From Acetobacteraceae bacterium (GTDB lineage: Bacteria; Pseudomonadota; Alphaproteobacteria; Acetobacterales; Acetobacteraceae): a stretch of 33,321 nt of DNA. Every line of letters starts with the position of its first letter. Within the stretch, counting starts at the first letter, position 1. The stretch is taken from the NCBI GenBank assembly GCA_019750465.1, contig JAIEOP010000089.1, positions 1-33,321 of the forward strand, written 5' to 3'. The notes under the pieces are model-generated. The model searched no databases. It was given only the letters and a program-made list of their open reading frames with translations, and was not told the origin of the DNA. Positions 5,886 through 23,458 of the stretch are shown in pieces. The translations under genes and the position numbers were made by a program.

Positions 5886-5988
5886 AGCCGAAACGCGGCG
5901 CCGTTGCACCCGTGCCGCCGGGGCACGGCTTGTGTCCCGCGGCCGCCCCGGCGACAGTGCCGTGCGGCAGACCTCGGGAGTGGCGGCC

Positions 5989-6849
5989 ATGAACCTCGGA
6001 CGGCTCGGCATCTGGTATCCCACGGACCGCCTCGACGCCGACGGGCTGGGCGCGCTGCTGCACCTGGTCGAGGAACAGGGCTACGGCACGCTCTGGTACC
6101 CGGAATCGCGCGGCTACGAATCCCTGGCGCTGGCCGGCTGCATGCTGGGCGCCACGCGGAGGCTGCACATCGGCAGCTCGATCGCCAGCATCTATGCGCG
6201 CGACGCCTTCACCGCGCGGCGCGGCATGGTGACCCTGAACGATCTCTACGGCGGGCGCTTCGTCCTCGGCCTCGGCGTGTCGCACGTGCCGATGGTGGAG
6301 GGCATCCGCGGCCATGTGTACGAGAAGCCCGTCCCCGCCATGCGCGCCTATCTCGACGGGATACAGAAGGGCGAGCCGGGGTCGGAGGGCTGGCCCCTGC
6401 TGGTGGCGGCCCTCGGGCCGCTGATGCTGAAGCTCTCCGCCACCCATGCCCGCGGCGCCGTGCCCTACAACGTGACGCCCGGGCACACGGCGGAGGCGGC
6501 GAAGATCCTCGGGCCGAACAAGGTCCTCGCCGTCGAGCAGAAGGTCTGCCTGGAGACCGACCCGGCCAAGGCCCGCGCGCTGGGGCGGAAGGAGCTGCAC
6601 CGCTACATGGGGCTGCCGAATTACCGCAACAACTGGCTGCGCATCGGCTTCACCGAAGCGGAGCTGGAGGGCGGCGGCAGCGACCGCTTCATCGATGCCA
6701 TGGTGCTGCACGGCGACGCCGCGGCGATCCGCGCAGGGCTGCGCGCGCATTTCGCCGCGGGCGCGACGCATGTCTGCCTCCAGCCCGTGCACGCCGAGGG
6801 AGACATCGCAGCGCGGGACGCGATGATCCGGGCGCTGGCGGATACCTGA
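5989..6849 (+). CDS. LLM-class F420-dependent oxidoreductase (MSMEG_4141-like)
   Basis: A 286-residue TIM-barrel flavin/deazaflavin enzyme of the luciferase-like monooxygenase superfamily. The pattern LGRLGIWYPTDRLDA, then GYGTLWYPESRGYE, IGSSIASIYARDAFTARRG and DLYGGRFVLGLGVSH matches the TIGR03620-type subfamily of probable F420 enzymes known mainly from actinobacteria. The substrate is unknown. The frame is open to 5932, but the ATG at 5989 is chosen because a GGGAG ribosome site lies just before it and homology begins there. The full F420 pathway downstream makes F420, rather than FMN, the likely cofactor. It stands alone on the plus strand, convergent to the PEP-CTERM gene. Confidence 0.85.
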   Translation: MNLGRLGIWYPTDRLDADGLGALLHLVEEQGYGTLWYPESRGYESLALAGCMLGATRRLHIGSSIASIYARDAFTARRGMVTLNDLYGGRFVLGLGVSHVPMVEGIRGHVYEKPVPAMRAYLDGIQKGEPGSEGWPLLVAALGPLMLKLSATHARGAVPYNVTPGHTAEAAKILGPNKVLAVEQKVCLETDPAKARALGRKELHRYMGLPNYRNNWLRIGFTEAELEGGGSDRFIDAMVLHGDAAAIRAGLRAHFAAGATHVCLQPVHAEGDIAARDAMIRALADT

Positions 6850-6898: not shown

Positions 6899-7663
6899 TC
6901 AGCCGGCGCTTGCTGGCCTGATCCGGCGCGCGGCGCCCAACGCCAGCAGCGCAGTCCCGAACAGGGCGATGGACATGGGCTCCGGGATGGATGTCAGCTC
7001 GTGGAAGGCCACATACGTCAGGTTGACGGTGAGGTCGGGCGGCGTTCCGGTGAACCCGCTCCCGGGCGTGTAGGTCAGCGGGGTTGTGCTGAAGGTATAG
7101 GGCAGCAGCGCGGCGAGCGCGCCGATGGAGAAGGTCTGTCCGAAGCTGAAGCTGGCGGTGAAGGTCGAAGCGAGCATGTCGGCGAGGTTGACGCCGTAGT
7201 AGATGGTGGACAGCCCCGAGCCGGGGGCCGGGAAGAAGTCTGGCAGCAGGATGGGAGCACCAAGCCCCGCCACGTAATCCGTGAGTGGATCCGAACTCAT
7301 CACGCCACCGGAGAACACGCCCGCGTACAGTACGCCCGGATCGAGCGGATCACCCGGGTTGCCCGTCGTCTGGATGAAGTCCGTCACCGCGAGCCCGTTG
7401 ATCTTTTCGGGCACCGTGAAGGTGACGGTGTTCCTGTTGCCGGGGATCCTGTCGACGAAGCGCGGCGCCTGCCCATTGGCGTTGAGGATCGGGTTGCCGT
7501 TGTTCGTGAAGGAGAGGGTGATCGGCGCGCCGTTCGGGCCGGTTTCCGTGATTCGCAGCCCCTTCCCGAGCACAACGCTGTCGGGAGGAATCGGGTTGGC
7601 CGACGCGGGGAGCACCCAAAGCAATCCCACCAGCGCGGCACCGCACCAAGACACAGGCCTCAT
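6899..7663 (-). CDS. PEP-CTERM sorting domain protein
   Basis: A 254-residue secreted protein. It begins with a signal peptide (MRPVSWCGAALVGLLWVLPASA), then a Gly/Thr/Asn-rich body of unknown fold, and ends with the exact PEP-CTERM layout: IPEP, a hydrophobic helix (IALFGTALLALGA) and a basic cluster (RRIR). In this class an exosortase cuts at the PEP motif so the protein reaches the cell surface or exopolysaccharide. No exosortase gene is in the window. The ATG at 7663 is preferred over 7696 because of a strong GAGGAGGAC ribosome site at 7667-7675. The body composition is less GC-extreme than its neighbours, as is usual for secreted surface proteins. Confidence 0.88.
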   Translation of the reverse strand: MRPVSWCGAALVGLLWVLPASANPIPPDSVVLGKGLRITETGPNGAPITLSFTNNGNPILNANGQAPRFVDRIPGNRNTVTFTVPEKINGLAVTDFIQTTGNPGDPLDPGVLYAGVFSGGVMSSDPLTDYVAGLGAPILLPDFFPAPGSGLSTIYYGVNLADMLASTFTASFSFGQTFSIGALAALLPYTFSTTPLTYTPGSGFTGTPPDLTVNLTYVAFHELTSIPEPMSIALFGTALLALGAARRIRPASAG

Positions 7664-7995
7664 TTTGTCCTCCTCGAATCGAGATTCACGGGACACCGGG
7701 GCACATGTTGTCTTCGGTTAGATGCATAGACGACATTTCGTGCAAGATCAACATAAATCGGAAAATCCATGAAAATGTTCGGGAGCACATGGGCGCGCCG
7801 GGCCCGCCTCCACGACGAAGCGGGCCGGCCGGTGCATGATGCCCCCGTGCGGAAGAGTGTCAGCATGCACGACGAGGATGCGGCGTCGCGTCCGGGGCGC
7901 CCGTCCTTTCCCGGCGTGGCCTGCCGGTGCCAAGCCGCATGACAGCGAGGCGGGTCGGACCTAGGCTCCGGCAAAGGCATTCAAGGACCACGGAC
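7664..7995. other. 332-base intergenic region between divergent genes
   Basis: It separates the minus-strand PEP-CTERM gene from the plus-strand fgd-like gene. The part at about 7705-7790 is clearly AT-richer than the rest of the window and carries a possible promoter for the PEP-CTERM gene. No convincing gene is seen. The reading frame of the fgd-like gene stays open back to 7927, but that part lacks homology to the family. Confidence 0.5.
7723..7751 (-). promoter_or_regulatory. Possible sigma-70-type promoter of the PEP-CTERM gene
   Basis: Read on the minus strand, TTGATC (7746-7751) and TATGCA (7723-7728) are separated by exactly 17 bases in the AT-rich stretch upstream of the gene, about 60 bases from its start codon. 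Both boxes are imperfect, so this is only a candidate. Confidence 0.3.
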
Positions 7996-9000
7996 ATGCT
8001 CAGGCTCGGCTACAAGGCGTCCGCGGAGCAGTTCGCGCCCGCACCGCTGCTCGACTTCTCCGTCATGGCGGAGGAGGTGGGGTTCGACAGCGTCTTCATC
8101 TCCGACCACTTCCAGCCCTGGAAGCATACGGACGGCCACGCGCCGAACTCCCTGGTCTGGCTCGGCGCGCTGGGGGCGCGGACGACGCGGGCGGTGCTCG
8201 GCACCTCGGTGCTGACGCCGACCTTCCGCTACCACCCCTCCATCGTGGCGCAGGCCTTCGGCACGCTGGGGTCGATGTTCCCCGGCCGCGTCATCCTCGG
8301 CATCGGCACCGGCGAGGGGCTGAACGAGGTGCCCTCCACCGGCCAGCCCTGGCCCGAGTTCAAGGAGCGCTTCGCGCGGCTGCGCGAATCCGTCCAGCTC
8401 ATGCGCCGCCTCTGGGCCGAGGAGCGCGTCAGCTTCGAGGGGCAGTACTACCGGACCGAGAAGGCGACGATCTACGACCGCCCGGCCGAGCCCGTGCCGA
8501 TCTACGTCGCCGCCGCCGGCGCGCTGGTGGCGAAGTATGCCGGCCGCAGCGGCGACGGCTTCATCTGCACCTCCGGCAAGAAGCCCGAGCTCTACACCGA
8601 GACGCTGCTGCCCAACCTGGCTGCCGGCCTCGAAGCCGCGGGCGCGCCGAAGCCGGGCTATGACCGCATGATCGAGGTGAAGGTCTCCTTCGACACCGAC
8701 CGGCGGCGCGCGCTGGAGGATACGCGCCACTGGGCGGCGCTGGCCCTCTCGCCGGAGGAGAAGATGTCGGTCGAGGACCCGGCCGAGATGGAACGCCTGG
8801 CCGACGCGCTGCCGCTGGAGCGTGCCGCCAGCCGCTGGATCGTCTCCGACGACCCGGAGGAGCAGGTGGAGCGGATCGGCGACTACGTGAAGCTCGGCTT
8901 CAACCACCTGGTCTTCCACGCCCCCGGCCCGGACCAGGCGCGCTTCCTGAAGCTCTATGGCGAGCGCGTCCTGCCGCTGCTGCGCAAGCGCTTCGGCTGA
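7996..9000 (+). CDS. fgd: F420-dependent glucose-6-phosphate dehydrogenase homologue
   Basis: A 334-residue LLM-family enzyme closely following mycobacterial Fgd1 along its whole length: [12 protein letters not shown] at the start, [61 protein letters not shown] and [16 protein letters not shown]. The catalytic His and Trp (38 and 42 here) and the Glu of GTGE (107) are present. So are the phosphate-binding Lys after FICTSG (~195-196), the Lys of [10 protein letters not shown] and the Arg of ASRWIV, which correspond to Fgd1 Lys198, Lys259 and Arg283. It should oxidise glucose-6-phosphate, or a related sugar-6-phosphate, and reduce F420 in the cytoplasm. ATG 7996 is chosen because family homology starts at MLRLGYKAS. 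It lies just upstream of the cofEDC operon. A related sugar-phosphate or alcohol dehydrogenase activity is the main alternative. Confidence 0.88.
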
Positions 9001-9052: not shown

Positions 9053-9628
9053 ATGTCGCACGCCCACGCAGCGCCCGGGCGCATGACCATCGCGGAATTC
9101 CTGCGCTGGCACGAGGACCGGGACGAGACGGAGCATTACGAGCTGGAGGACGGGGTTCCCGTCCTGATGGCGCCGGAACGGCTTGAGCATGCGGCGGCCA
9201 AGTTCCGCGCGGGGCGCGTGCTGCAGGACGCCGCCGATGCGGCCGGCCACGCCTGCCAGGCCTATGTCGATGGCCCGATGATCCCGGTTTCCGATCACCG
9301 CGCCTACCAGCCGGATGCGGTCATGCGGTGCGGCCCGCCGCTGCCGCCCGAGTCCATGCTGATCCCCGATCCCCTCGTGGTGGTGGAGGTGGTTTCGCCG
9401 AACACGGGAAGGCAGGACCGCGTGCTGAAGCTGGAGGGCTACTTCGCCGTGCCCTCGCTGCGGCACTACCTCGTCGTGCTGCTGGAACGGCGGCGCGTCA
9501 TCCATCACCGGCGCGTTGCGCCGGATGCCGTGATCGAGACGCGCATCCTGGCCGAGGAGGCGGGCATCGCGCTCGATCCGCCCGGTCTTGCGCTGCCGGT
9601 CGCGGCGCTGCTCGGGCCGGCTCCGTGA
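9053..9628 (+). CDS. Uma2 family (DUF820) PD-(D/E)XK nuclease-fold protein
   Basis: A 191-residue protein with the Uma2 pattern: MTIAEFLRWHEDRDETEHYELEDG at the N-terminus, YQPDAVM with the first catalytic Asp, VVVEVVSPNTGRQDRVLKLEGY with the Glu and Lys of the PD-(D/E)XK core, and LRHYLVV after it. The family has a restriction-endonuclease fold but almost no member has a known role; copies are abundant in cyanobacteria and some alphaproteobacteria. Its stop overlaps the GTG start of cofE, so it would be translated with the F420 genes. Whether this is functional coupling or a chance insertion is unknown. Confidence 0.85.
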   Translation: MSHAHAAPGRMTIAEFLRWHEDRDETEHYELEDGVPVLMAPERLEHAAAKFRAGRVLQDAADAAGHACQAYVDGPMIPVSDHRAYQPDAVMRCGPPLPPESMLIPDPLVVVEVVSPNTGRQDRVLKLEGYFAVPSLRHYLVVLLERRRVIHHRRVAPDAVIETRILAEEAGIALDPPGLALPVAALLGPAP

Positions 9629-10395
9629 ACGCTGGGCGGCTCGAAGCCGTCGCCCTGCCCGGGCTGCCGATGGTGCGGCCCGGCGACGACCTGGCCGCGC
9701 TGGTGCGCGCCGGGCTGGACGCGGCGGGGCTGCTGCCGCTGCGGTCCTTCGACGTGCTGGTGGTGGCGCAGAAGATCGTCTCCAAGGCGGAGGGCCGCAT
9801 CTTGGAGGTGCCCTCCGTCGTGCCCTCCGCCGAGGCGGTGGCGGTCGCGGCGCGCTGCGCCAAGGACCCGCGCCTGGTGGAGGTGATCCTGCGCGAATCG
9901 GTGCGCGTCGTGCGCGCCCGGCCGAACCTGCTGATCGTCGAGCATCGGCGCGGCTGGATCATGGCCAATGCCGGCGTCGACCATTCCAATGTCGGCCCCG
10001 AGGACGGGGTGGAGCGCGTGCTGCTGCTGCCCGAGGACCCGGATGCCAGCGCCGCCCGGCTGCATGCCGCCCTCGCCCCGCCTGGGCAGGTTTTGGGCGT
10101 GGTGATCAACGACAGCTTCGGTCGCGCCTGGCGACGCGGCACCTGCGGGGTCGCGATCGGCGCGGCCGGGCTGCCGGCGCTGCTCGACCTGCGCGGCAGA
10201 CCCGACCTGTTCGGCCGCACATTGCAGGTCAGCATCAGCGGCTTCGCCGACGAGATCGCCGCCGCCGCCTCGCTCGTGCAGGGCCAGGCCGCCGAGGCGC
10301 AGCCCGTGGTGCTGCTGCGCGGGCTGCGCTGGGCGGTGCCGGCGGCCAGCGCGGCGGAGCTGGTGCGGCCGGCGGCGGAGGACCTGTTCCGGTGA
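9625..10395 (+). CDS. cofE: Coenzyme F420-0:L-glutamate ligase
   Basis: A 256-residue enzyme that adds glutamates to F420-0 with GTP to form the oligoglutamate tail of F420. Family landmarks are present: DVLVVAQKIVSKAEGR (~43-58), RESVRVVRARPNLLIVEHRRG, NAGVDHSNV (metal and nucleotide site) and NDSFGRAWRRGTCGVAIG. The GTG at 9625 overlaps the Uma2 stop as GTGA and homology starts right after it. Unlike actinobacterial FbiB it has no C-terminal nitroreductase-type FMN domain; it is the single-domain archaeal/proteobacterial form. Its stop overlaps the cofD start. Confidence 0.94.
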   Translation: MNAGRLEAVALPGLPMVRPGDDLAALVRAGLDAAGLLPLRSFDVLVVAQKIVSKAEGRILEVPSVVPSAEAVAVAARCAKDPRLVEVILRESVRVVRARPNLLIVEHRRGWIMANAGVDHSNVGPEDGVERVLLLPEDPDASAARLHAALAPPGQVLGVVINDSFGRAWRRGTCGVAIGAAGLPALLDLRGRPDLFGRTLQVSISGFADEIAAAASLVQGQAAEAQPVVLLRGLRWAVPAASAAELVRPAAEDLFR

Positions 10396-11342
10396 GCGGC
10401 CCCGTGGTGGCGCTGTCCGGCGGCGTCGGCGGGGCGAAGCTGGCGCTCGGCCTCTCCCGCGTGCTGCCGGCCGAGGCGCTGATCGTCGTCGCCAACACGG
10501 GCGACGACTTCGAGCATCTCGGTCTCTCCATCTCGCCCGACATCGACACCCTGACCTATGCGCTGGGCGGCGTGGACAACCCCGCTACGGGCTGGGGGCG
10601 GCGCGACGAGACCTGGCATTTCATGACGGCGCTCGCCGAGCTCGGCGGCGAGACCTGGTTCCGCCTCGGCGACCAGGACCTGGCGACGCATGTCGAGCGC
10701 ACGCGCCGCCTGCGCGCCGGCGAGACGCTGAGCGCGGTGACGGATGCCTTCCGCCGCGCCTTCGGCATCGCCGCGCGCATCCTGCCGATGAGCGACGACC
10801 GCGTGCGCACGCGCGTGCGCACCGAGGAGGCGGGCTGGCTCGACTTCCAGGACTGGTTCGTGCGCCTGCAATGCCGCCCCGCCGTGCGGGAGCTGACCTT
10901 CGACGGTGCCGCGGCGGCGCGCGCACAGCCGGAATTCCTGGCGGCACTGGCCGATCCCGCATTGCGCTGCGTGGTGATCTGTCCGTCCAACCCCTTCATC
11001 AGCGTGGCGCCGATCCTGGCGTTGCCCGGCGTGCGGGCGGCGCTGGAGGCATGCCGCGCGCCGGTGGTCGGCGTCTCGCCCATCATCGGCGGGCGGGCGG
11101 TGAAGGGGCCGACCGCGAGGATGTTCGCGGAGCTGGGCCTCGGCGCGCCGAGCGCAGCCGGCGTCGCCGCGCATTACGGCCGCCTTCTGGATGGCTACGT
11201 GATGGATGCGATGGATGCCGCGGAGGCGGCGACCATGCAGGGTCCGCGCGTGGCGCTGGCGCAGACCCTGATGGCGACGCTCGACGACCGCGAGGCGCTA
11301 GGGCGCGCGGTGCTGGACCTGGCGGACAGCCTGCGCGCATGA
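10392..11342 (+). CDS. cofD: 2-phospho-L-lactate transferase / FO transferase
   Basis: A 316-residue enzyme that joins FO to the phospho-organic acid part of the activated intermediate made by CofC, giving F420-0 or its dehydro form. Signatures: VVALSGGVGGAKLALGL at the N-terminus (nucleotide loop), NTGDDFEHLGLSISPDIDTL-type motif with the Asp residues that bind metal and FO, WFRLGDQDLATHV, ILPMSDDRVRT and SNPFISVAPILA. The GTG at 10392 overlaps the cofE stop (GTGA), and the stop overlaps cofC (ATGA), so the three genes form one tightly coupled operon. The exact acid donor (phospholactate, PEP or 3-phosphoglycerate) cannot be read from sequence by eye. Confidence 0.95.
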   Translation: MSGPVVALSGGVGGAKLALGLSRVLPAEALIVVANTGDDFEHLGLSISPDIDTLTYALGGVDNPATGWGRRDETWHFMTALAELGGETWFRLGDQDLATHVERTRRLRAGETLSAVTDAFRRAFGIAARILPMSDDRVRTRVRTEEAGWLDFQDWFVRLQCRPAVRELTFDGAAAARAQPEFLAALADPALRCVVICPSNPFISVAPILALPGVRAALEACRAPVVGVSPIIGGRAVKGPTARMFAELGLGAPSAAGVAAHYGRLLDGYVMDAMDAAEAATMQGPRVALAQTLMATLDDREALGRAVLDLADSLRA

Positions 11343-12085
11343 GCGCCGGCATCTGGGCCGTGCTGCCGGTGAAGGAGCTGGCGGGGGCGAAGCAGCGCCT
11401 CTCGCCCCTGCTTTCGCCGGAGGAGCGCGTTGCGCTGGCGCGCGTCATGTTTTCGGAGGTGATGGAGGCCGTCGCCGCCGCGCGCGGCCTGGCCGGCGTT
11501 CTGGTGGTGACGCTCGACCCCTGGGCGGCGGAGCAGGCGCGGGGCATCGGCGCGCGGGTGGTGACGGAGGGCGCGCGGGATGGGCACACCGGCAGCGTCA
11601 ATGCCGGCATCCGCGCGCTGCTGGCGGAGCGGCACTTCGGCATGCTCGCCATGCCCGGCGACATCCCCGCCGCCACCCCGGCCGAGATCGAAGCCGTGCT
11701 GGCGGCGCATGATCCGCGCGAGGGGCGCGGCTTCACCATCGCGCCGGCGCATGACGAGCAGGGCTCGAACGCGGTGCTGCTCTCGCCGCCCGATGCGGTG
11801 CCGTTGCGCTTCGGCGACGACAGCTACTTTCCGCACTTGGACGCGGCACGGCGGGCCGGGCTGGAGCCGGCGATCGTGCCCCTGCCGGGGATCGCCATGG
11901 ACATCGACCACCCGGCAGACCTGGCGATGTTCCTGGCGCTGCCGCAGTCGCGCGGCACGCGGACGCGGGCTTGGCTGGAGGCGAGCGGGATCGCAGCGCG
12001 GGTGCGACGACTCCATCGCCTTCCCGACTTCACCCCGCCGGTGGCGGGAGGAGCGTCCCCTCCCCCGCTGGCGGGGGAGGGTTAG
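11339..12085 (+). CDS. cofC: 2-phospho-L-lactate (or analogue) guanylyltransferase
   Basis: A 248-residue nucleotidyltransferase that activates the phospho-organic acid with GTP for CofD. It begins with the family signature WAVLPVKELAGAKQRLSPLLSPEER, then GHTGSVNAGIRAL, MPGDIPAATPAEIEAVL (metal-binding Asp), QGSNAVLLSPPDA and FGDDSY-PHLDAA. ATG 11339 overlaps the cofD stop. The family fold ends near ARVRRLHRL; the last ~20 residues (FTPPVAGGASPPPLAGEG) come from a dispersed GC-rich hairpin repeat inserted at the gene end, so they are probably not part of the working enzyme. Confidence 0.93.
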   Translation: MSAGIWAVLPVKELAGAKQRLSPLLSPEERVALARVMFSEVMEAVAAARGLAGVLVVTLDPWAAEQARGIGARVVTEGARDGHTGSVNAGIRALLAERHFGMLAMPGDIPAATPAEIEAVLAAHDPREGRGFTIAPAHDEQGSNAVLLSPPDAVPLRFGDDSYFPHLDAARRAGLEPAIVPLPGIAMDIDHPADLAMFLALPQSRGTRTRAWLEASGIAARVRRLHRLPDFTPPVAGGASPPPLAGEG

Positions 12086-12100: not shown

Positions 12101-12142
12101 ATCGACTGGTGGGGGTGGTGCTACCGACTTGTTGGGGTGGCC
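12087..12142. repeat. 22-bp tandem repeat
   Basis: Unit GTGGGGGTGGTGCTANCGAC plus two bases: copies at 12087-12108 and 12109-12130 differ at two positions, and a 12-base partial copy follows at 12131-12142, ending at the cofGH stop codon. It seems to have grown from the tail of the hairpin repeat. Confidence 0.75.
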
Positions 12143-14547
12143 TACACCGCCTCCACCGCCGCCCGCTTCCGCGGCGGCGTCATCACCATCGGCGTCAGCG
12201 CGGCGGCGCCGAAGCTCACGCGGCGGCGCTCCGCCGGCACTGGCCCGTACAGCGTGTCGCGCTGCTGCGGCACGCGGCCGATGCGCAGGATCAGCCTCTC
12301 CATCGCCTCGGGCGGGAATTCCTGGCCGTGCTGCGTGCCGGCGGCGCGGCTGATGCTCTCGTTCATCAGCGTGCCGCCAAGGTCGTTGGCGCCGGCATCG
12401 AGGCACATCGCCACGCCCTCCGGCCCCATCTTCACCCAGCTCACCTGGATGTTGGTGATCAGCGGGTGCAGCGCGAGGCGCGCGACGGCATGCATCAGCA
12501 CGGCTTCCCGGAAGGTCGGGCCCTTTCGCGCGCGGCCCTTCAGGTACATCGGCGCCTCCATGTGCACGAAGGGCAGGGGGACGAATTCGGTGAAGCCCCC
12601 GGTCTCGGCCTGTGCCGCGCGCAGCCGCAGCAGGTGGCGCGCCCAGTGCAGCGGCCCCTCCACATGGCCGAACATGATGGTGGAGGTGGTGCGCAGCCCG
12701 ATCGCGTGCGCCGTCGTCACCACCTCCAGCCACTGCGCCGTGTTCACCTTGTCGGGCGAGATGACCGCGCGGATCTCGTCATCCAGGATCTCGGCGGCGG
12801 TGCCCGGCAGCGTGCCCAGCCCTGCATCCTTCAGCCGCGCGAGGTACTCCCGCAGCGGCAGCCCGAGCGTCGCCGCGCCCTGCGTCACTTCCAGCGGCGA
12901 GAAGGCGTGGATGTGCATCGCCGGCACCGCCGCCTTGATGGCGCGGCAGATCGCCTCGTAGGTGGCGCCGGTGTAGTCCGGGTGGATGCCGCCCTGCAGG
13001 CAGACCTCGGTCGCGCCGCGCCCCCAGGCCTCCACTGCGCGGCGCACGATCTCCGCGTGGTCGAGGTCGTAGGGCGTGCCGCGCAGGGCTTCGTGCGTCC
13101 TGCCCTTGCTGAAGGCGCAGAAGGTGCAGCGGTAGGTGCAGATGTTGGTGTAGTTGATGTTGCGGTTCACGACGTAGCGCACCGTCTCGCCGCTGACCGC
13201 GCGGCGCAGCGCGTCGGCGGCCTGCGTGACGTGGCGCTGGTCGGCGTCGCGCGCGGCGAACAGGCGGATGATGTCGTCCTGCCCGATGCCCGCGCCCGCG
13301 GCCGCGCGCTCGACGATCCGCGCCACGCCGGCATCCACGCTGGCCAGCCGCACCGGCGGCAGCGGCGGCGGCACCAGCTCGCCGGGCGACCAGGCGCCGT
13401 CCTCCCGCGCCAGGCCCGTCGCGTCCGAGAGGCGCAGCGCCCCTGTCGCCACCCTCGGCGCCAGCCAGCGCACATCGTCGCGCACATACGCGGGATAGGC
13501 CGGCAGGCGCTGCACCAGCACCTTGCCCGTCTCCGCCGTGCGGCGCGCCAGCTCCTCCAGGTGCGGCCAGGGCGCCTCCGGGTTCACGTGGTCCGGCGTC
13601 ACCGGCGAGACGCCGCCCCAGTCGTTCAGCCCCGCGCCGACCAGGCGCTGGTAGACCCCGGGCGAGAGGTTGGGCGGCGCCTGGATGTTCATCGCCGGCC
13701 CCAGCAGGATGCGCGCGACGGCGATCGTCCAGAGCAGCTCCTCCAGGCCCGGTTCCGGCGCCAGCACCATCCTGGTGCCCGGCTTGGCGCGGAAATTCTG
13801 GATGATGACTTCCTGGATGTGCCCGTATTCCGCGTGCAGGTCGCGGATCGCGCGCAGGCTCTCGATCCGCTCGGCGCGCGTCTCGCCGATGCCGATCAGG
13901 ATGCCGGTGGTGAAGGGCACGGCCAGTTGGCCGGCCAGGCGCATCGTCTCCAGCCGCGCCGCCGGGTGCTTGTCCGGCGAGCCATGGTGCGGCCCGCCGG
14001 GCCCGCAGAGCCGCTCGCTCACGCTCTCCAGCATGATGCCCTGGCTGGCCGAGACCGCGCGCAGCGCAGCGATCTCGTCGCGCGTCATCACGCCCGGGTT
14101 GGCGTGCGGCAGCAGGCCGGCCTCACGCAGCACCAGGGCGGACATGGCGACGAGGTATTCGATGGTGGTCGCGTGCCCCATCGCGCGCAGCGCCTCGGCC
14201 GCCTGCGGCCAGCGCAGTTCCGGCTTGTCGCCGAGCGTGAACAGCGCCTCCGTGCAGCCGGCCGCCGCGCCGGCGCGGGCGATGGCCAGCACCTCCTCGG
14301 CCGCGAGGTAGGGGGAATGGCCCGGCCGCGGCCGTTGTTCCGCGAAGGTGCAATAGTGGCAGACATCGCGGCAGAGCCGCGTCAGCGGTATGAACACCTT
14401 GCGCGAATAGGAGATCAGCCGGCCGTGCCCGGCGTCGCGCAGCGCCGCGGCCTCCGCCATCAGCGCGGCAAGCGGCCTCCGTTCCAACTCCGCCGTATCC
14501 ATCCGTCCCGCCCCCGACCCTTGCCCAACCGGGCCCATCGGCTGCAT
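12142..14547 (-). CDS. fbiC: Bifunctional FO synthase (CofG-CofH fusion)
   Basis: An 801-residue fusion of two radical-SAM enzymes that builds the deazaflavin FO from 5-amino-6-ribitylaminouracil and tyrosine. The N-terminal CofG half has its 4Fe-4S motif CRDVCHYC (Cys ~59, 63, 66); the C-terminal CofH half has CTYRCTFC (Cys ~470, 474, 477) after NINYTNI. Domain order and length match actinobacterial FbiC rather than the separate archaeal proteins. The start is uncertain: ATG 14547 leaves only 42 bases to the divergent gene at 14590, while ATG 14502 (MDTAELERR) would leave 87. It is convergent to cofEDC, so it must have its own promoter. Confidence 0.95.
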   Translation of the reverse strand: MQPMGPVGQGSGAGRMDTAELERRPLAALMAEAAALRDAGHGRLISYSRKVFIPLTRLCRDVCHYCTFAEQRPRPGHSPYLAAEEVLAIARAGAAAGCTEALFTLGDKPELRWPQAAEALRAMGHATTIEYLVAMSALVLREAGLLPHANPGVMTRDEIAALRAVSASQGIMLESVSERLCGPGGPHHGSPDKHPAARLETMRLAGQLAVPFTTGILIGIGETRAERIESLRAIRDLHAEYGHIQEVIIQNFRAKPGTRMVLAPEPGLEELLWTIAVARILLGPAMNIQAPPNLSPGVYQRLVGAGLNDWGGVSPVTPDHVNPEAPWPHLEELARRTAETGKVLVQRLPAYPAYVRDDVRWLAPRVATGALRLSDATGLAREDGAWSPGELVPPPLPPVRLASVDAGVARIVERAAAGAGIGQDDIIRLFAARDADQRHVTQAADALRRAVSGETVRYVVNRNINYTNICTYRCTFCAFSKGRTHEALRGTPYDLDHAEIVRRAVEAWGRGATEVCLQGGIHPDYTGATYEAICRAIKAAVPAMHIHAFSPLEVTQGAATLGLPLREYLARLKDAGLGTLPGTAAEILDDEIRAVISPDKVNTAQWLEVVTTAHAIGLRTTSTIMFGHVEGPLHWARHLLRLRAAQAETGGFTEFVPLPFVHMEAPMYLKGRARKGPTFREAVLMHAVARLALHPLITNIQVSWVKMGPEGVAMCLDAGANDLGGTLMNESISRAAGTQHGQEFPPEAMERLILRIGRVPQQRDTLYGPVPAERRRVSFGAAALTPMVMTPPRKRAAVEAV

Positions 14548-14589
14548 CGTGTGGCATCACCGGTGCCCGTGCAACGGGGGAGGAACGCC

Positions 14590-15543
<954 letters not shown>

Positions 15544-15547
15544 TCCC

Positions 15548-16585
15548 ATGAAGCTCGGCATCACCATCGGCATGATCCGCGGCGCCACGCCGCAGCTCGA
15601 GATGGACGTCGTGCTGGAGGCCGAGCGCCTCGGCTACGACGCCGTCTGGTGCGGCGAGTCCTACGGCACGGACGCGGTCACGCCGATCGCCTGGGTGCTG
15701 GCGCGCACCACGCGCATCCGCGCCGGCACCGGCATCATGCAGATGCCGGCGCGCACGCCGACCTGCGCGGCGATGACCTCCATGACGCTGCAGGCGCTCT
15801 CGGGCGACCGCTTCCTGTGCGGCGTCGGGCCATCCGGCCCGCAGGTCGCCGAGGGCTGGTACGGCGTGCCCTACGGCAACGGCCTCGGCCGCACGCGGGA
15901 ATACATCGAGATCATCAGGAAGATCATCGCCCGCGAGGCGCCGCTGACCCACGAGGGCGAGCACTACCAGATCCCCTATGCCGGCCCCGGCGCCTCCGGC
16001 CTCGGCAAGCCGCTGCGCAGCATCATCCACGGCAAGCCGCTGCCGGTCTATACCGCCTCCATCACGCCGGGCGGGCTGCGCCTCTCGGGTGAGATCGCCG
16101 ACGGCAACCTGCCGATCTTCATGTCGCCGGAGCGCGCGGACGTGGTGACGAAGCCGACGCTGGAAGGCCGTGCTCGGATGGGCAGGACGGACCTCGCGGG
16201 CTACGACATCGCGCCCTACACCAAGATCCGGATGGGCGACGACCTGCAGGCCTGCCGCGACGCGATCAAGCCCGAGCTCGCGCTCTACATCGGCGGCATG
16301 GGCGCGCGCGGCAAGAATTTCTACAACGACTACGCGAAGAAGCTCGGCTACCCGGATGCCGCGCGGGTGATCCAGGATCTCTACCTGGACGGCAAGAAGC
16401 GGGAGGCGGCGGCCGAGGTGCCGGACCGGCTGTGCGACGAGGTCGCGCTGCTCGGGCCCGCGGACCGCATCAGGGCGCGGCTGCAGGACTGGAAGGCGGC
16501 GGCGAAGGACGGCAGCGTCGGCACCATCGTCTTCACCGGCGCCACCGTCGAGGCGCTGCGGGTGGCGGCGGAGGCGGTGCTGTAG
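15548..16585 (+). CDS. LLM-class F420-dependent oxidoreductase (Rv3520c-like)
   Basis: A 345-residue luciferase-like enzyme with the marks of the TIGR03559-type group: EAERLGYDAVWCGESYGTDAV, IMQMPARTPTCAAMTSMTLQ, LSGDRFLCGVGPSGPQVAEGW, GVPYGNGLGRTREYIEIIRKI, and YAGPGASGLGKPLRSIIHGK. It follows the previous LLM gene by 4 bases in the same operon. The family is F420-binding in mycobacteria but its reaction is not settled; fatty-acyl, terpenoid or quinone-like substrates are possible. It is convergent to the P450 gene, 39 bases away. Confidence 0.88.
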   Translation: MKLGITIGMIRGATPQLEMDVVLEAERLGYDAVWCGESYGTDAVTPIAWVLARTTRIRAGTGIMQMPARTPTCAAMTSMTLQALSGDRFLCGVGPSGPQVAEGWYGVPYGNGLGRTREYIEIIRKIIAREAPLTHEGEHYQIPYAGPGASGLGKPLRSIIHGKPLPVYTASITPGGLRLSGEIADGNLPIFMSPERADVVTKPTLEGRARMGRTDLAGYDIAPYTKIRMGDDLQACRDAIKPELALYIGGMGARGKNFYNDYAKKLGYPDAARVIQDLYLDGKKREAAAEVPDRLCDEVALLGPADRIRARLQDWKAAAKDGSVGTIVFTGATVEALRVAAEAVL

Positions 16586-16624: not shown

Positions 16625-17878
16625 TCACGCCGCCAGCTTCACCGGCAGGTGCGTGATGCCGTGCACGAAGGGGGACATCACCCGCTGCGGCGGGCCCAGC
16701 ACCTCGATCTTCAGGTCGCGCTTCAGGATCTCCTCCCACAGGATCTTCAGCTGCATCTCCGCCAGGCGGTTGCCGACGCAGCGGTGGATGCCGAAGCCGA
16801 AGGAGAGGTGCTGGCGCGGCCGGGCGCGGTCGATGATGAAGCGCTCCGGCTCCTCGATGGCCTCCTCGTCGCGGTTGCCCGACAGGTACCACATGATCAC
16901 CTTGTCGCCTTCGCGGATCTTCTGGCCGTTCAGCTCGAAGTCGGCCACCGCGGTGCGGCGCATGTGCGACAGCGGCGTCTGGTAGCGGATGATCTCCGGC
17001 ACCGCGCTGTCCACCAGGGCGGGGTTCGCCTTCAGCTTGGCGTATTCCCCCGGGTTCTGGCTGAAGAACCAGACGCCGCCGGAGATCGAATTGCGCGTGG
17101 TGTCGTTGCCGCCGACGATCAGCAGCACCAGATTGCCCATGAACTCGCGCGGCGGCATGTTCCGCGTCGCCGGCGCGTGCGCCATCATGGAGATCAGGTC
17201 GGGCGCCGGCTCGGCGTTCACGCGCTGGTTCCACAGGTTGATGAAATAGGCCGCCATCTCGCGGAACTTCGCCTCGCGCTGCTCCTCGTTCTCGATGAGG
17301 CCGCCGGGCATCGGCAGCGCCGTCGCGCAGTCCGACCAGTGCGACAGCAGGCGGCGGTCCTCCTGCGGGAAGTCGAACAGGGTGGCCAGCATCTGCACGG
17401 TCAGCTCGATGGAGACCTTGTCCACCCAGTTGAATTCCTCGCCCCGCGGCAGGCCATCCAGGATCGTGCAGACGCGTTCGCGGATGATGCCTTCCATCTT
17501 CGCGAGGTTGCCCGGCGCCACGATCGGCTGCACCGCCTGGCGCTGGATGTCGTGCTTCGGCGGGTCCATGGCGATGAACATCGGCAGCTCGAGCTCCTTC
17601 GCCCGGTCGCGGATGGTGATGCCGCCGAACTGCGAGGAGGAGGAGAACGCCTTGTGGTTCACCTCCACCGTCATGATGTCCTTGTACTTCGTCACCGACC
17701 AGAACGGCCCGTACTCGCTCTCGGCCGTGTAGTGCACGGGGGCGTCGCGGCGCAGGCGCCGGAAATAGGGATGGACGGTGTCGTCGCGGAACAGCTCGGG
17801 CCGGCTCGGGTCGATCTTGTCGAGCGGCAGGCTGAAGGCGAGCGCCTCGTGGTCCTCGAGGTTGACGGGTGCGTTCAT
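16625..17878 (-). CDS. Cytochrome P450, CYP153-like terminal hydroxylase
   Basis: A 417-residue soluble P450. The I-helix oxygen-binding motif is GGNDTTRNS (~256), ExxR is EIIR (~295-298) and the haem loop is FGFGIHRCVGNRLAEMQL with Cys ~367. The NDTTRNS helix, the HLSFGFGIHRC loop and the N-terminal text PVHYTAESEYGPFWSVTKYKD strongly resemble CYP153, whose members hydroxylate the end carbon of medium-chain alkanes, fatty acids or terpenes. It is last in a reductase-ferredoxin-P450 set, the three-part electron chain CYP153 needs. The assignment to CYP153 is by eye; CYP124/125-like steroid or branched-lipid hydroxylases are the closest alternatives. ATG 17878 follows a GGGAGC ribosome site. 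Confidence 0.9.
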   Translation of the reverse strand: MNAPVNLEDHEALAFSLPLDKIDPSRPELFRDDTVHPYFRRLRRDAPVHYTAESEYGPFWSVTKYKDIMTVEVNHKAFSSSSQFGGITIRDRAKELELPMFIAMDPPKHDIQRQAVQPIVAPGNLAKMEGIIRERVCTILDGLPRGEEFNWVDKVSIELTVQMLATLFDFPQEDRRLLSHWSDCATALPMPGGLIENEEQREAKFREMAAYFINLWNQRVNAEPAPDLISMMAHAPATRNMPPREFMGNLVLLIVGGNDTTRNSISGGVWFFSQNPGEYAKLKANPALVDSAVPEIIRYQTPLSHMRRTAVADFELNGQKIREGDKVIMWYLSGNRDEEAIEEPERFIIDRARPRQHLSFGFGIHRCVGNRLAEMQLKILWEEILKRDLKIEVLGPPQRVMSPFVHGITHLPVKLAA

Positions 17879-17991
17879 GGCGGTTCGTGCTCCCAGCGGG
17901 CCGGGGCGACCCGGCGGCGGTTCTGGGGGCGGAGACTACAGCCTCCGCCCGGTCGGATGCGAGCAAAACGGCTCCAGGCGGCGTCGTTGCG

Positions 17992-18312
17992 TCAGTGCTG
18001 CGCTTCCGGCATGCGCACCACCAGCCCGTCCAGCGCCGCGGTCATCTCGATCTGGCAGGAGAGGCGGGAGTTGTCCTGCTTCGTCGCGGCGAAGCTGAGC
18101 ATCGAGGCCTCCTGCTCGGACGGCGTGCCGGTCCTGGCCTCCCAGGCCGGATCGACGAAGACGTGGCAGGTGGCGCAGGCGCATTCGCCGCCGCAATCGG
18201 CATCGATGCCGGGGACGTTGTTGTCCACCGCGCCGCGCATGACGGAGAGGCCCACGGGCACCTCCACCGCATGCTCGGTGCCGTTGTGCTCGATGTAGGT
18301 GACCTTGGGCAT
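17992..18312 (-). CDS. 2Fe-2S ferredoxin (putidaredoxin/adrenodoxin type)
   Basis: A 106-residue electron carrier. The cluster ligands fit C-x5-C-x2-C plus a distant Cys: Cys 40, 46, 49 and 86, with an extra Cys 44 inside the loop ([14 protein letters not shown]). The ending [20 protein letters not shown] is typical of P450-linked ferredoxins. A strong AGGAAGGA ribosome site at 18318-18325 supports the ATG at 18312. It lies between the reductase (24 bases upstream) and the P450 (113 bases downstream) and should pass electrons from one to the other. Confidence 0.95.
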
Positions 18313-18336
18313 GGGTATCCTTCCTGGCGAATAGGG

Positions 18337-19560
18337 TCAGGCCGTGGCGAGGGCGGCAAGCGGGGTGGCGGGATCGGCGAGGCGCGCGGCCGGCACCGGC
18401 CGGCCGAGGGCGATCAGGCGCTTGCCGGCCATGAATTCCGGCGCGGCGTTCACCGCCTCGACGGCCTGCACCGCGCCGGCGGCGTCCAGGTGGAAGACGG
18501 CGAGCCGATCCCCGGCCGCCGGGTCGCCGCGGACGACCCCCTGCGCCGCGCCTTGCGCAAGCCCCGCGACCTGGATGCGCAATTCGTACTGGTCCGACCA
18601 GAACCAGCAGACCTCCGGCGCCGGCACGGGGCGGCCGCACAGGTCGGCGGCGGCCTGCTTGGCCTGTTCCGTGGCGCTCGGCACGCTTTCCAGCCGCCCC
18701 ATCGCGCCGCCCGGCAGCGGGCGGATGGTGCAGTCGCCGATCGCATGGATGGCCGGGTCGGCGGTGCGCGCGCTGCCGTCCACGCGGATGCCGCCGCCCG
18801 GCTCGGCCAGGCCGGCGGCCCGGGCGAGGGCGTCCTCCGCCACCGCCCCGACGCCCAGCAGCACCAGGTCGGCCGGGATGCGCGTGCCGTCCGCCAGCCG
18901 CACCGCGTCGGGCTCGATGGCCTCGATGCCTACCCTCAGGCGGAGATCGACGCCGCGCCGCCGGTGCGCCGCGTCCACGAAGGCCGAGAGGGCGGGGCTG
19001 GCGACGCGGGCCAGCACCCGGTCCTGCGCCTCCAGCACCGTCGCCGCGGCACCCAATGCCCGGGCGGAGGCCGCGACCTCCAGCCCGATCCAGCCGGCGC
19101 CGATCACCACGACGCGGCGCCCCGGCCCGATGCCCGCCTTCAGCCGGTCCGCATCCGCGGCATTGCGCAGGGTGTGCACAAGCGGCAGGTCGGCGCCCGG
19201 CAGCGGAATGCGGCGCGCCCGCGCCCCGGTGGCCAGGATGAGGTGGTCGTAGGCAAGCGCCTCGCCGCCGGCCAGGCGCAGGGTTTTCGCGCCGCGGTCG
19301 ATCGCCTCCGCCGGCGTGCCGAGGTGCAGCGTGACGTGCTGCTTGCCGTAGAACTCCGCCGGGCGCAGCGCCAGGCTCTCGGCCGTCGCCTCGCCCTTCA
19401 GCCAGGCCTTGGAGAGCGGCGGCCGGTGATAAGGCAGCACCGGCTCCTCGCCGAGCAGGATGATCTCGCCGGGCCAGCCGTACTGGCGCAGGAAGGCCGC
19501 GGCATTGCTGCCGGCATGGCCCGCCCCGATGATCACCACCCGCGCCGTTGCAGGCTCCAC
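18337..19560 (-). CDS. NAD(P)H-dependent ferredoxin reductase (FAD), P450 redox partner
   Basis: A ~407-residue flavoprotein of the putidaredoxin-reductase type. It has the FAD-binding GAGHAG motif near residue 12, LPYHRPPLSKAWL, the LATGAR motif, a second GAGWIGLEVAASA motif for NAD(P)H, and IHAIGDC near the C-terminal FAD site. It moves electrons from NAD(P)H to the 2Fe-2S ferredoxin downstream. The start is probably GTG at 19560 (or 19575), since the longer frame to 19677 lies over the end of the ABC ATPase gene and has no homology. It follows that ATPase gene by about 50 bases on the same strand and may share its transcript. Confidence 0.9.
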   Translation of the reverse strand: MEPATARVVIIGAGHAGSNAAAFLRQYGWPGEIILLGEEPVLPYHRPPLSKAWLKGEATAESLALRPAEFYGKQHVTLHLGTPAEAIDRGAKTLRLAGGEALAYDHLILATGARARRIPLPGADLPLVHTLRNAADADRLKAGIGPGRRVVVIGAGWIGLEVAASARALGAAATVLEAQDRVLARVASPALSAFVDAAHRRRGVDLRLRVGIEAIEPDAVRLADGTRIPADLVLLGVGAVAEDALARAAGLAEPGGGIRVDGSARTADPAIHAIGDCTIRPLPGGAMGRLESVPSATEQAKQAAADLCGRPVPAPEVCWFWSDQYELRIQVAGLAQGAAQGVVRGDPAAGDRLAVFHLDAAGAVQAVEAVNAAPEFMAGKRLIALGRPVPAARLADPATPLAALATA

Positions 19561-19612
19561 CCGCCCTGTCCCCACCCGTTGCAGGCATGTAGGCCGGGGG
19601 GCAGGGGCGGCG

Positions 19613-20551
19613 TCAAGCGGCGCGGGGCGGCCCGCCGCCGAAGGCCAGCAGGTCGTCCAGCGCCACCGAGCCGCCATCCGTCACCGGCAACGCCCGCACG
19701 CCGGCAGCCAGCATGGCGGCGAGCGCATCGCGCAGGTTCGTCCCCGGCGGCAGCGGCGTGCCGGAGGCCGCCTCCGGCCGGCGCGGCGCATCGGCCAGGG
19801 TGAACAGGCCGAGCCGCGTCAGCGCGCGGTCGGCGCCGAGGAATTCGGCGACGAAAGGGTCCCCCGGGTCGGCCAGGATCTCGGCCGCGGGCGCGTGCCG
19901 CAGCAGCCGCCCGGCGCGCAGCACGGCGACGGCATCGCCGAGGCGCACCGCCTCCTCCACGTCGTGCGTGACGATCAGCACGGTCTTGCGCAGGCTGCGC
20001 AGCAGGTGCAGCACCTCGTCCTGCAGCCGGGCGCGCACCACCGGATCGACGGCGCCGAAGGGCTCGTCCATCAGCAGCACGGGCGGGTCGCCGGCAAGCG
20101 CCCGGGCCACGCCGACGCGCTGGCGCTCCCCGCCCGAGAGCTGGTGGGGCCAGCGGTCCCGGAAGCGCCCCGGATCGAGGCCGACCAGGGACAGCACCGC
20201 CTCCACCCGGGCGGCGATGCGCGCGGCGTCCCAGCCCAGCAGGCGCGGCACGGTGGCGACGTTCTCCGCCACGGTGCGGTGCGGAAACAGCCCACCCTCC
20301 TGGATGACGTAGCCGATCCCCCGCCGCAGCGTGACGGCATCCATGCGCAGCGCGTCCTGCCCGCCGATCAGGATCTCGCCCGATGTCGGCTCCACCAGGC
20401 GGTTGACCATGCGCAACGTGGTGGTCTTGCCGCAGCCGGAGGGGCCGATCAGGGCGCAGCTCGTGCCCTCCGGCACGGTCAGCGTCAGGTCCGCGACGGC
20501 TGGCTGGGCGGCGCCGGGATAGGTCTTGGTCAGGCCGCGCAGGGTGATCAT
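19613..20551 (-). CDS. Osmoprotectant/quaternary-amine ABC transporter ATPase
   Basis: A 312-residue ABC ATPase of the OpuCA/OsmV type, powering uptake of compounds such as glycine betaine or choline. Walker A is GPSGCGKTTT, the Q-loop VIQEGGLFPH, the signature LSGGERQRVGVARAL, Walker B VLLMDEPFGAVD and the switch VTHD. After the core there is a short regulatory tail with a CBS-like piece (LRDALAAMLAAGVRALPV). ATG 20551 overlaps the permease stop as ATGA. The last of four transporter genes in transcription order. Confidence 0.92.
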   Translation of the reverse strand: MITLRGLTKTYPGAAQPAVADLTLTVPEGTSCALIGPSGCGKTTTLRMVNRLVEPTSGEILIGGQDALRMDAVTLRRGIGYVIQEGGLFPHRTVAENVATVPRLLGWDAARIAARVEAVLSLVGLDPGRFRDRWPHQLSGGERQRVGVARALAGDPPVLLMDEPFGAVDPVVRARLQDEVLHLLRSLRKTVLIVTHDVEEAVRLGDAVAVLRAGRLLRHAPAAEILADPGDPFVAEFLGADRALTRLGLFTLADAPRRPEAASGTPLPPGTNLRDALAAMLAAGVRALPVTDGGSVALDDLLAFGGGPPRAA

Positions 20552-22746: not shown

Positions 22747-23183
22747 GCCGGCGGGTTCCAGGGGTTGACGACGGGGATGCCGACCTGGTGGAAGTCCGCG
22801 ACATTCCGCGTCACGACGCCGAGGCCGTGGGTTGCGGCCGTTGCGGCAATGAACAGGTCGGGCTGCGCGTAGGTACGCCGGCGCGCCTTGCCATCATCCA
22901 CCATGGCACGCCAGGCGAACACGACGGCCTCGTCGATGTCGAGGACGCGGCCGCGGAACCAATGTCGCAGCGTGCGGTCGAGCCATTCCTGCAACTCGTG
23001 GCGGAACGCGTCGTCCTCCGCAAGGGCTTCGATGCCGGCGCGGATCTCGGCGAAGGTCACGCAGCTGACGAAAAGCGGGGAGGCGCCGTGCTTCCGCGAC
23101 CATGCGAGGACGTTCGGATGGCAGCGCGGCTTGCGCAGCTCGGAGACGACGTTGGTATCGACGATCCAGCCCGCCGCCGTCAC
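22743..23183 (-). CDS. vapC: VapC-type PIN domain toxin
   Basis: A 146-residue PIN-domain ribonuclease. The acidic active-site residues are in place: Asp in IVDTNVVSELRK (~9), Glu in FAEIRAGIE (~46), Asp in QPDLFIAATA and the final TRNVADF. Toxins of this FitB/VapC group cut RNA and are held in check by the protein made just upstream. Its start overlaps the antitoxin stop (ATGA) and its stop overlaps the transporter binding-protein start. Confidence 0.93.
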   Translation of the reverse strand: MTAAGWIVDTNVVSELRKPRCHPNVLAWSRKHGASPLFVSCVTFAEIRAGIEALAEDDAFRHELQEWLDRTLRHWFRGRVLDIDEAVVFAWRAMVDDGKARRRTYAQPDLFIAATAATHGLGVVTRNVADFHQVGIPVVNPWNPPA

Positions 23184-23458
23184 AGCTCGACGTCGCGGAT
23201 CTTCATGCGGATGCCGGGCCGGCCGAACTTCAGGCGCCGCAGCGGGGAGTTCACGAGCACGTCGCGCAGGTTGGGGCGCTTCTCCCGCGGCCCAGCCAGC
23301 TTCGCGTACTCCTCGGCGGAAAGCACGACGACGGCCTCCCTTCCGTGCACCGTCACCGCCTGCGGGCCATGCGCGCGCGCCTCCCGCACAAGCTCGCTGA
23401 AGCGGGCCTTGGCGTCCTGGAGCTTCCAGGTGCGCGGGGTGGGGGTGCCATCGGGCAT
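23180..23458 (-). CDS. Phd/YefM family antitoxin
   Basis: A 92-residue protein with the Phd/YefM pattern WKLQDAKARFSELVREARAHG, then PQAVTVHGREAVVVLSAEEYAKL, which forms the DNA-binding and dimer part. The C-terminal ~30 residues (RDVLVNSPLRRLKFGRPGIRM) should wrap the VapC partner. Such antitoxins normally repress their own operon, which here extends into the ABC transporter genes. Confidence 0.92.
   Translation of the reverse strand: MPDGTPTPRTWKLQDAKARFSELVREARAHGPQAVTVHGREAVVVLSAEEYAKLAGPREKRPNLRDVLVNSPLRRLKFGRPGIRMKIRDVEL

Follow-up and report, generated by a model that had tools for sequence, protein, structure and literature searches.

At positions 7996 to 9000 of the forward strand, the window (the whole 33,321-nucleotide stretch of Acetobacteraceae DNA analysed here) carries fgd, an ORF with an ATG start that encodes 334 amino acids. 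Comparing its product with PDB sequences by phmmer returned two FGD1 proteins over nearly the whole length, 5lxe from Rhodococcus (E 1.4e-135, residues 2-330) and 3b4y from Mycobacterium tuberculosis (E 2.2e-135, residues 2-331), with 9hav (1.5e-62), Adf 1rhc (3.7e-61) and hydroxymycolate dehydrogenase 9fp4 (6.6e-58) as runners-up. The NCBIfam model TIGR03554 scored 482 bits, above its cut-off of 420, and end-to-end alignment gave 61% identity to M. tuberculosis FGD1. The hydroxymycolate dehydrogenase model TIGR04465 reached 220 bits, under its cut-off of 470. Six residues of 3B4Y, which we take from the FGD1 structure papers to be catalytic (His40, Trp44 and Glu109) or phosphate-binding (Lys198, Lys259 and Arg283), align with H38, W42, E107, K195, K256 and R280, so that 6 of 6 are present. 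The original prediction of whole-length Fgd1 likeness, with the catalytic His, Trp and Glu and three phosphate-binding basic residues retained, stands on both counts. Judged by sequence, the ORF is a genuine FGD-family enzyme and a predicted F420-reducing dehydrogenase. A non-FGD LLM protein is ruled out by the PDB matches, the TIGR03554 score and tree placement; identity as hydroxymycolate dehydrogenase or Adf is ruled out by the TIGR04465 score and the retained phosphate residues.

The surroundings of fgd form an F420 island in Gram-negative DNA, as originally claimed: CofE, CofD, CofC and FbiC each exceed the cut-off of a curated model (bit scores are given here with the cut-off after the slash). 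Downstream on the forward strand lie cofE, encoding a single-domain F420-0:glutamate ligase (9625-10395; TIGR01916, 255/181 bits), cofD, encoding 2-phospho-L-lactate transferase (10392-11342; TIGR01819, 287/257 bits) and cofC, encoding 2-phospho-L-lactate guanylyltransferase (11339-12085; TIGR03552, 133/105 bits). Two further CofE models, NF009809 and NF009810, stayed below their cut-offs. Starts read by eye are a likely GTG at 9625 for cofE, 4 nt inside the stop of the preceding Uma2 ORF, a likely GTG at 10392 for cofD and a likely ATG at 11339 for cofC, the latter two each giving a 4-nt overlap with the stop of the gene before. Convergent to the cof genes, fbiC (cofGH) for FO synthase occupies 12142-14547 of the reverse strand (NF006687, 1135/1018 bits). 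The Uma2-family ORF between fgd and cofE (9053-9628, forward strand; PF05685, 78/27 bits) is probably a passenger; none of the 98 other FGD loci compared has one in that place, and L106 has one farther downstream.

Three LLM-class oxidoreductases, each a likely F420H2 user, are encoded on the forward strand: an F420-dependent one upstream of fgd (5932-6849; TIGR03620, 278/220 bits), a second at 14557-15543 (TIGR03619, 224/167 bits) and another F420-dependent one at 15548-16585 (TIGR03559, 360/335 bits). Among the genes searched for, a TIGR03620-type homologue comes next upstream of fgd in 14 of the best 80 named loci described below and in 10 of 18 family regions, many of the 80 being incomplete stretches. 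Adjoining the F420 LLM genes, a cytochrome P450 with its own 2Fe-2S ferredoxin and ferredoxin reductase is encoded on the reverse strand (16625-19677); these and the LLM genes possibly serve one degradation pathway. Between the TIGR03620 LLM gene and fgd, reverse-strand ORF 6899-7696 encodes a protein with PEP-CTERM features, for which only the short TIGR02595 domain was over the cut-off out of five PEP-CTERM-related models. A Phd/YefM-type antitoxin ORF lies at 23180-23449 on the reverse strand.

How common this arrangement is can be gauged from 200 genomes of the window's family, mostly draft assemblies and with the window's own genome counted. FGD over the cut-off occurs in 49 and fbiC in 50; 46 genomes have both and 147 neither. 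FGD without fbiC was found in G035, G080 and G143, and fbiC without over-cut-off FGD in G058, G133, G150 and G176, the last of which has an FGD fragment at a contig end. Where both occur, they share one contig in 26 of the 46 genomes, 19 of these within 6 kb. A scan for named loci in GTDB genomes found at least 585 relatives among 596 pattern-matching stretches, and the best 80 were used. In 65 of these 80, cofE comes directly after fgd, in 42 the order continues with cofD and cofC, and in 73 at least one cof or fbi gene is part of the locus; all three features recur in 18 of 18 family regions, which had been chosen because FGD and fbiC lie on one contig there. Among the best 80 are Dankookia rubra (91%), Siccirubricoccus, Caldovatus, Bradyrhizobium, Reyranella, Ancylobacter, Bosea, Roseibium and Devosia as well as gammaproteobacterial and Chloroflexi MAGs. 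Of the matches listed, the nearest named relatives belong to Roseomonadaceae, order Acetobacterales, where the window probably belongs as well. Because 49 of 200 family genomes and the named relatives carry FGD, fgd is ordinary for its lineage; a rare one-off transfer is ruled out by the same family count and the named stretches. The available text of Grinter and Greening (PMC8498797) already predicts Fgd in Alphaproteobacteria from genomes.

Within the window's genome, 32 places match the FGD model; only ORF 7996-9000 is over the cut-off, the others reaching 81 bits or less. No Fno exceeds its cut-off there (best 27.5 bits). With up to 14 candidates scored per genome, Fno at E 1e-25 or better appeared in 3 of 200 family genomes (G058, G082 and G133), all without over-cut-off FGD, and in none of the 49 with FGD, which makes FGD the only recognised F420 reducer found in FGD-bearing family genomes. 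Fno lies ~4 kb from fbiC on contig C3 of G058 (L191) and contig C111 of G133 (L192), both without over-cut-off FGD, as if it replaced FGD there as F420 reducer. G150, a further fbiC genome, has neither over-cut-off FGD nor Fno. The predicted role in F420H2 supply is strengthened by a single over-cut-off FGD in a genome with no Fno over the cut-off. Calling the island 'self-sufficient' for F420H2, as first proposed, goes too far: its CofE is a single-domain protein, which we take to be one without the C-terminal nitroreductase part of FbiB, and the window ORFs scanned, a part of the whole set, included no dehydro-F420 reductase. In the available portion of PMC8498797, alphaproteobacterial F420 producers are said to have Fgd in addition to Fno, and the F420-reducing dehydrogenases of these non-actinobacterial bacteria to have lacked experimental study at that time.

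Together, we consider it likely, with good confidence, that the window encodes a glucose-6-phosphate (G6P)-oxidising FGD of a mainly proteobacterial FGD/FSD branch, which leads an fgd-cofE-cofD-cofC block and is the main or only F420H2 supplier. The computed basis consists of family, residues, island, conserved order and no recognised Fno. What we infer is the reaction itself, its main substrate (G6P) and the way in which electrons flow: F420 is very probably charged with electrons that the enzyme draws from a sugar phosphate. As encoded at the head of the conserved block, it would oxidise C1 of G6P, yielding 6-phosphogluconolactone, and pass the hydride directly from that carbon to F420. The cell would draw its F420H2 mainly or only from this step and deliver it to F420-dependent oxidoreductases, three of which are encoded close to fgd. 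We know of no measured activity for any enzyme of this branch.

One competing explanation, plausible yet somewhat doubtful, is that in zwf-lacking members of the family FGD has replaced the NADP-dependent G6P dehydrogenase, with oxidative pentose-phosphate entry running on F420 and 6-phosphogluconate dehydrogenase (NAD type in the window's genome) acting next. We searched for the Zwf type of G6P dehydrogenase, for gnd by PF00393 and for the DevB-type lactonase by TIGR01198. The window's genome (522 contigs, 95% complete) has no zwf match, and zwf is absent from 23 of 49 FGD family genomes, this one included. All 23 have gnd, as against 13 of 34 zwf-lacking genomes without over-cut-off FGD (p 5e-7, for an association that is clade-structured). 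The difference persists at completeness of at least 90% (22 of 22 versus 10 of 25) and when genera are compared and G176 is placed with the FGD carriers (12 of 12 versus 6 of 21). Among genomes that have zwf, FGD makes little difference to how often gnd occurs (22 of 26 FGD genomes versus 93 of 117 others). The retention of gnd in zwf-lacking FGD genomes suggests oxidative pentose-phosphate entry on F420. In the window's genome, gnd is of the short NAD type and over the TIGR00872 cut-off (372/297 bits). Read by eye, zwf-lacking FGD members keep gnd in the genera that vary for zwf (g1, g21, g25, g36 and g63), and in g20, g76 and g80 the zwf-lacking, FGD-less member is also without gnd, two of these three genomes being 84% and 66% complete. 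Genomes of the named loci were searched for zwf in 23 cases: 20 have it, including Bradyrhizobium, Ancylobacter, Devosia, Acidisoma and Acidisphaera, and the isolates Siccirubricoccus deserti, Caldovatus aquaticus and Roseomonas sp. MO-31 gave no match. FGD carriers without zwf were thus seen only among Acetobacterales in the set examined.

Gene neighbourhoods speak on both sides of this replacement. gnd lies beside fgd or within ~5 kb of it in 5 of the best 80 named loci (L104, L111, L112, L118 and L073), but the 18 family regions show no gnd close to fgd, and in the window's genome the two lie on different contigs. On pRHL3 of Rhodococcus jostii, fgd is flanked by gnd and pgi, an arrangement also stated in the available text of PMC5352752; in Rhodococcus DK17, fgd is near glpX, tkt and tal. 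Further points argue against replacement. The 13 zwf-lacking genomes that keep gnd do so without over-cut-off FGD, although one of them, G176, has an FGD truncated by the end of its contig. In addition, zwf is present in genus-mate G035, and the completeness of the window's genome is 95%. By eye, gnd and zwf are neighbours in several genomes, and the two genes are separated in four of the five zwf-varying FGD genera, so that linkage may explain part of the gnd association. A phylogenetic control yielded 3 independent pairs (mean 1.6 for, 0 against), a number that cannot reach significance, on a tree of one marker, the best under-cut-off match to the edd model (presumably an IlvD-like dehydratase), for 27 of 57 zwf-lacking genomes. 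That tree is rough because of this coverage and because of deep paralogues on long branches (G095, G151, G170, G194 and G132). No TIGR01198 lactonase (pgl) was found in the window's genome, which also weighs against the preferred G6P-oxidising FGD, and none over the cut-off in the 23 zwf-lacking FGD genomes, where 3 weak matches occur; 6-phosphogluconolactone would therefore need another lactonase or spontaneous hydrolysis. Its spontaneous hydrolysis is possible. Use of the FGD product by the Entner-Doudoroff route is unsupported, with Edd over the cut-off in none of the 23 zwf-lacking FGD genomes (up to 6 candidates scored per genome). We put forward only tentatively, and on the doubtful side, the proposal that in zwf-lacking Alphaproteobacteria of this family, the window's included, FGD is the only G6P dehydrogenase, giving the first electron pair to F420 and, in the window's genome, the second to NAD.

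In the available text of Mascotti et al. (PMC6279831), the family to which the protein belongs is split into alcohol dehydrogenases, FGD and FSD; the phosphate residues are common to FGD and FSD, and position 177 is proposed to be Gly in FGD and Ser in FSD. By alignment, the window FGD has Ala (Ala174) at FGD1 position 177, neither Gly nor Ser, as do 30 of 30 family homologues retrieved. Across 110 non-actinobacterial ingroup sequences (the window, 30 family loci and 79 named loci), the residue is Ala in 96, Gly in 11 and Ser in 3; across 55 actinobacterial ones it is Gly in 43, Ser in 10 and Ala in 2. L115 and L127 are one gene. In each of the actinobacterial genomes G461, G582 and G510, a Gly copy is accompanied by a second copy with Ser or Ala, a pairing already published for orders that possess both FGD and FSD. 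A 96-sequence tree joins 21 of 22 Gly177 actinobacterial sequences in a clade (100/98) without the window FGD, L132 being the exception, and places the Ser sequence L161 as its neighbour (90/91), so that the 177 marker and the tree agree incompletely. The mainly proteobacterial sequences group together (88/96), neighbouring the Gly177 clade and two Chloroflexi sequences; rooting is uncertain because outgroup branches are very long. Alignment and tree place the protein in the FGD/FSD family and not among unrelated LLM proteins, but not inside the Fgd1 clade. The label 'mycobacterial-type' accordingly fails: Ala stands in for Gly177, and relatives are widespread in Alphaproteobacteria and include some gammaproteobacterial MAGs. 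With Gly177, the proposed marker of FGD sensu stricto (DH2), absent and the protein outside the DH2 clade, and with Ala174 in place of the proposed FSD (DH3) marker Ser177, sequence comparison sets the window FGD in a mainly proteobacterial FGD/FSD branch of its own, outside the mycobacterial FGD clade. Within the Ala branch, a Devosia/Hyphomicrobiales group (L114, L116, L117, L119-L122 and L124; three of the eight in the tree) has Gly177, apparently acquired on its own there, and offers a natural test of the specificity marker.

A second competing explanation, which we hold rather doubtful, is that the protein is an FSD, a broad sugar-6-phosphate dehydrogenase also using fructose- and mannose-6-phosphate and thereby tapping several sugar phosphates. 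Its 61% identity to M. tuberculosis FGD1 resembles the 59% reported for FSD-Noca in the available text of PMC6279831. The window FGD is 63-69% identical to actinobacterial Ser/Ala177 proteins such as L115, L136 and L139, and the genomes of L136 and L139 (G461 and G582) also carry a Gly177 FGD; however, the Gly177 sequences L129 (67%) and L130 (65%) are equally close. A tree constrained to unite the proteobacterial branch with 10 FSD-like sequences was not rejected by the AU test (p-AU 0.36), whereas the free tree sets that branch closer to the FGD and Chloroflexi sequences (99/96), with a very distant outgroup. TIGR03554 was over its cut-off in 5 of 5 FSD-like sequences tried, so that the NCBI name cannot tell G6P-only from broader use. 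Against the FSD assignment, position 177 is Ala and not Ser. For the G6P-oxidising FGD favoured above, G6P is the likely main substrate by analogy, since FGD and FSD both favour it in the available text of PMC6279831, and other 6-phospho-sugars are possible.

It is very improbable that the enzyme mainly serves another substrate or direction and that F420H2 comes from another, unrecognised dehydrogenase, for although the 31 sub-cut-off FGD-model matches in the window's genome point to other LLM proteins, perhaps F420 enzymes, the sugar-phosphate residues are all retained, fgd is linked to pentose-phosphate genes in other genomes and characterised FGD and FSD enzymes oxidise sugar phosphates, according to the available text of PMC6279831.

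The presence of fgd here is ordinary; what is new is that none of the 49 FGD family genomes has Fno at E 1e-25 or better and that 23 of them, including the window's, are without zwf. Part of the interest lies in a possible role as sole G6P dehydrogenase in zwf-less cells: in relatives lacking the usual G6P enzyme, a central pathway may be entered through FGD alone. If that is true, the central metabolism of a Gram-negative bacterium would include F420. In a lineage where no other recognised enzyme acts as G6P dehydrogenase or as F420 reducer, FGD would couple F420 to the metabolism of sugars and would allow a clean genetic test. With the Ala177 branch, the proposed FGD/FSD specificity switch gains a third state found in nature, and the NCBI name 'glucose-6-phosphate dehydrogenase (coenzyme-F420)' spans proteins of uncharacterised substrate range. 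Among the matches listed from titles and abstracts of open-licence literature, none describes a cell whose sole G6P dehydrogenase is FGD, or a proteobacterial FGD whose activity was assayed.

Compared with known systems, the window FGD is the same kind of gene as the alphaproteobacterial Fgd predicted in PMC8498797, and the lack of Fno at E 1e-25 or better across the family's 49 FGD genomes departs from the available text of that review. The F420-dependent hydroxymycolate dehydrogenase (9FP4, clade DH1) belongs to the same protein family, and the window FGD falls far below the TIGR04465 cut-off. Adf (1RHC), also of clade DH1 and the same family, has His40, Trp44 and Glu109 in common with the window FGD but is 34% identical to it and is without counterparts of Lys198, Arg283 and Thr195. 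FSD-Noca and FSD-Cryar (clade DH3), compared by published description with their own sequences outside our set, are reported in the available text of PMC6279831 to have the same phosphate residues and lie at a similar distance from FGD1, yet they carry Ser177 where the window FGD has Ala. Closest in kind are FGD1 (3B4Y) and Rh-FGD1 of Rhodococcus jostii (5LXE), both of clade DH2, which align over the whole length with the same catalytic and phosphate residues. From FGD1 the window FGD differs in its sequence (61% identity), in its place outside the FGD1 clade (100/98), in Ala for Gly177 and in being encoded with cofE-cofD-cofC.
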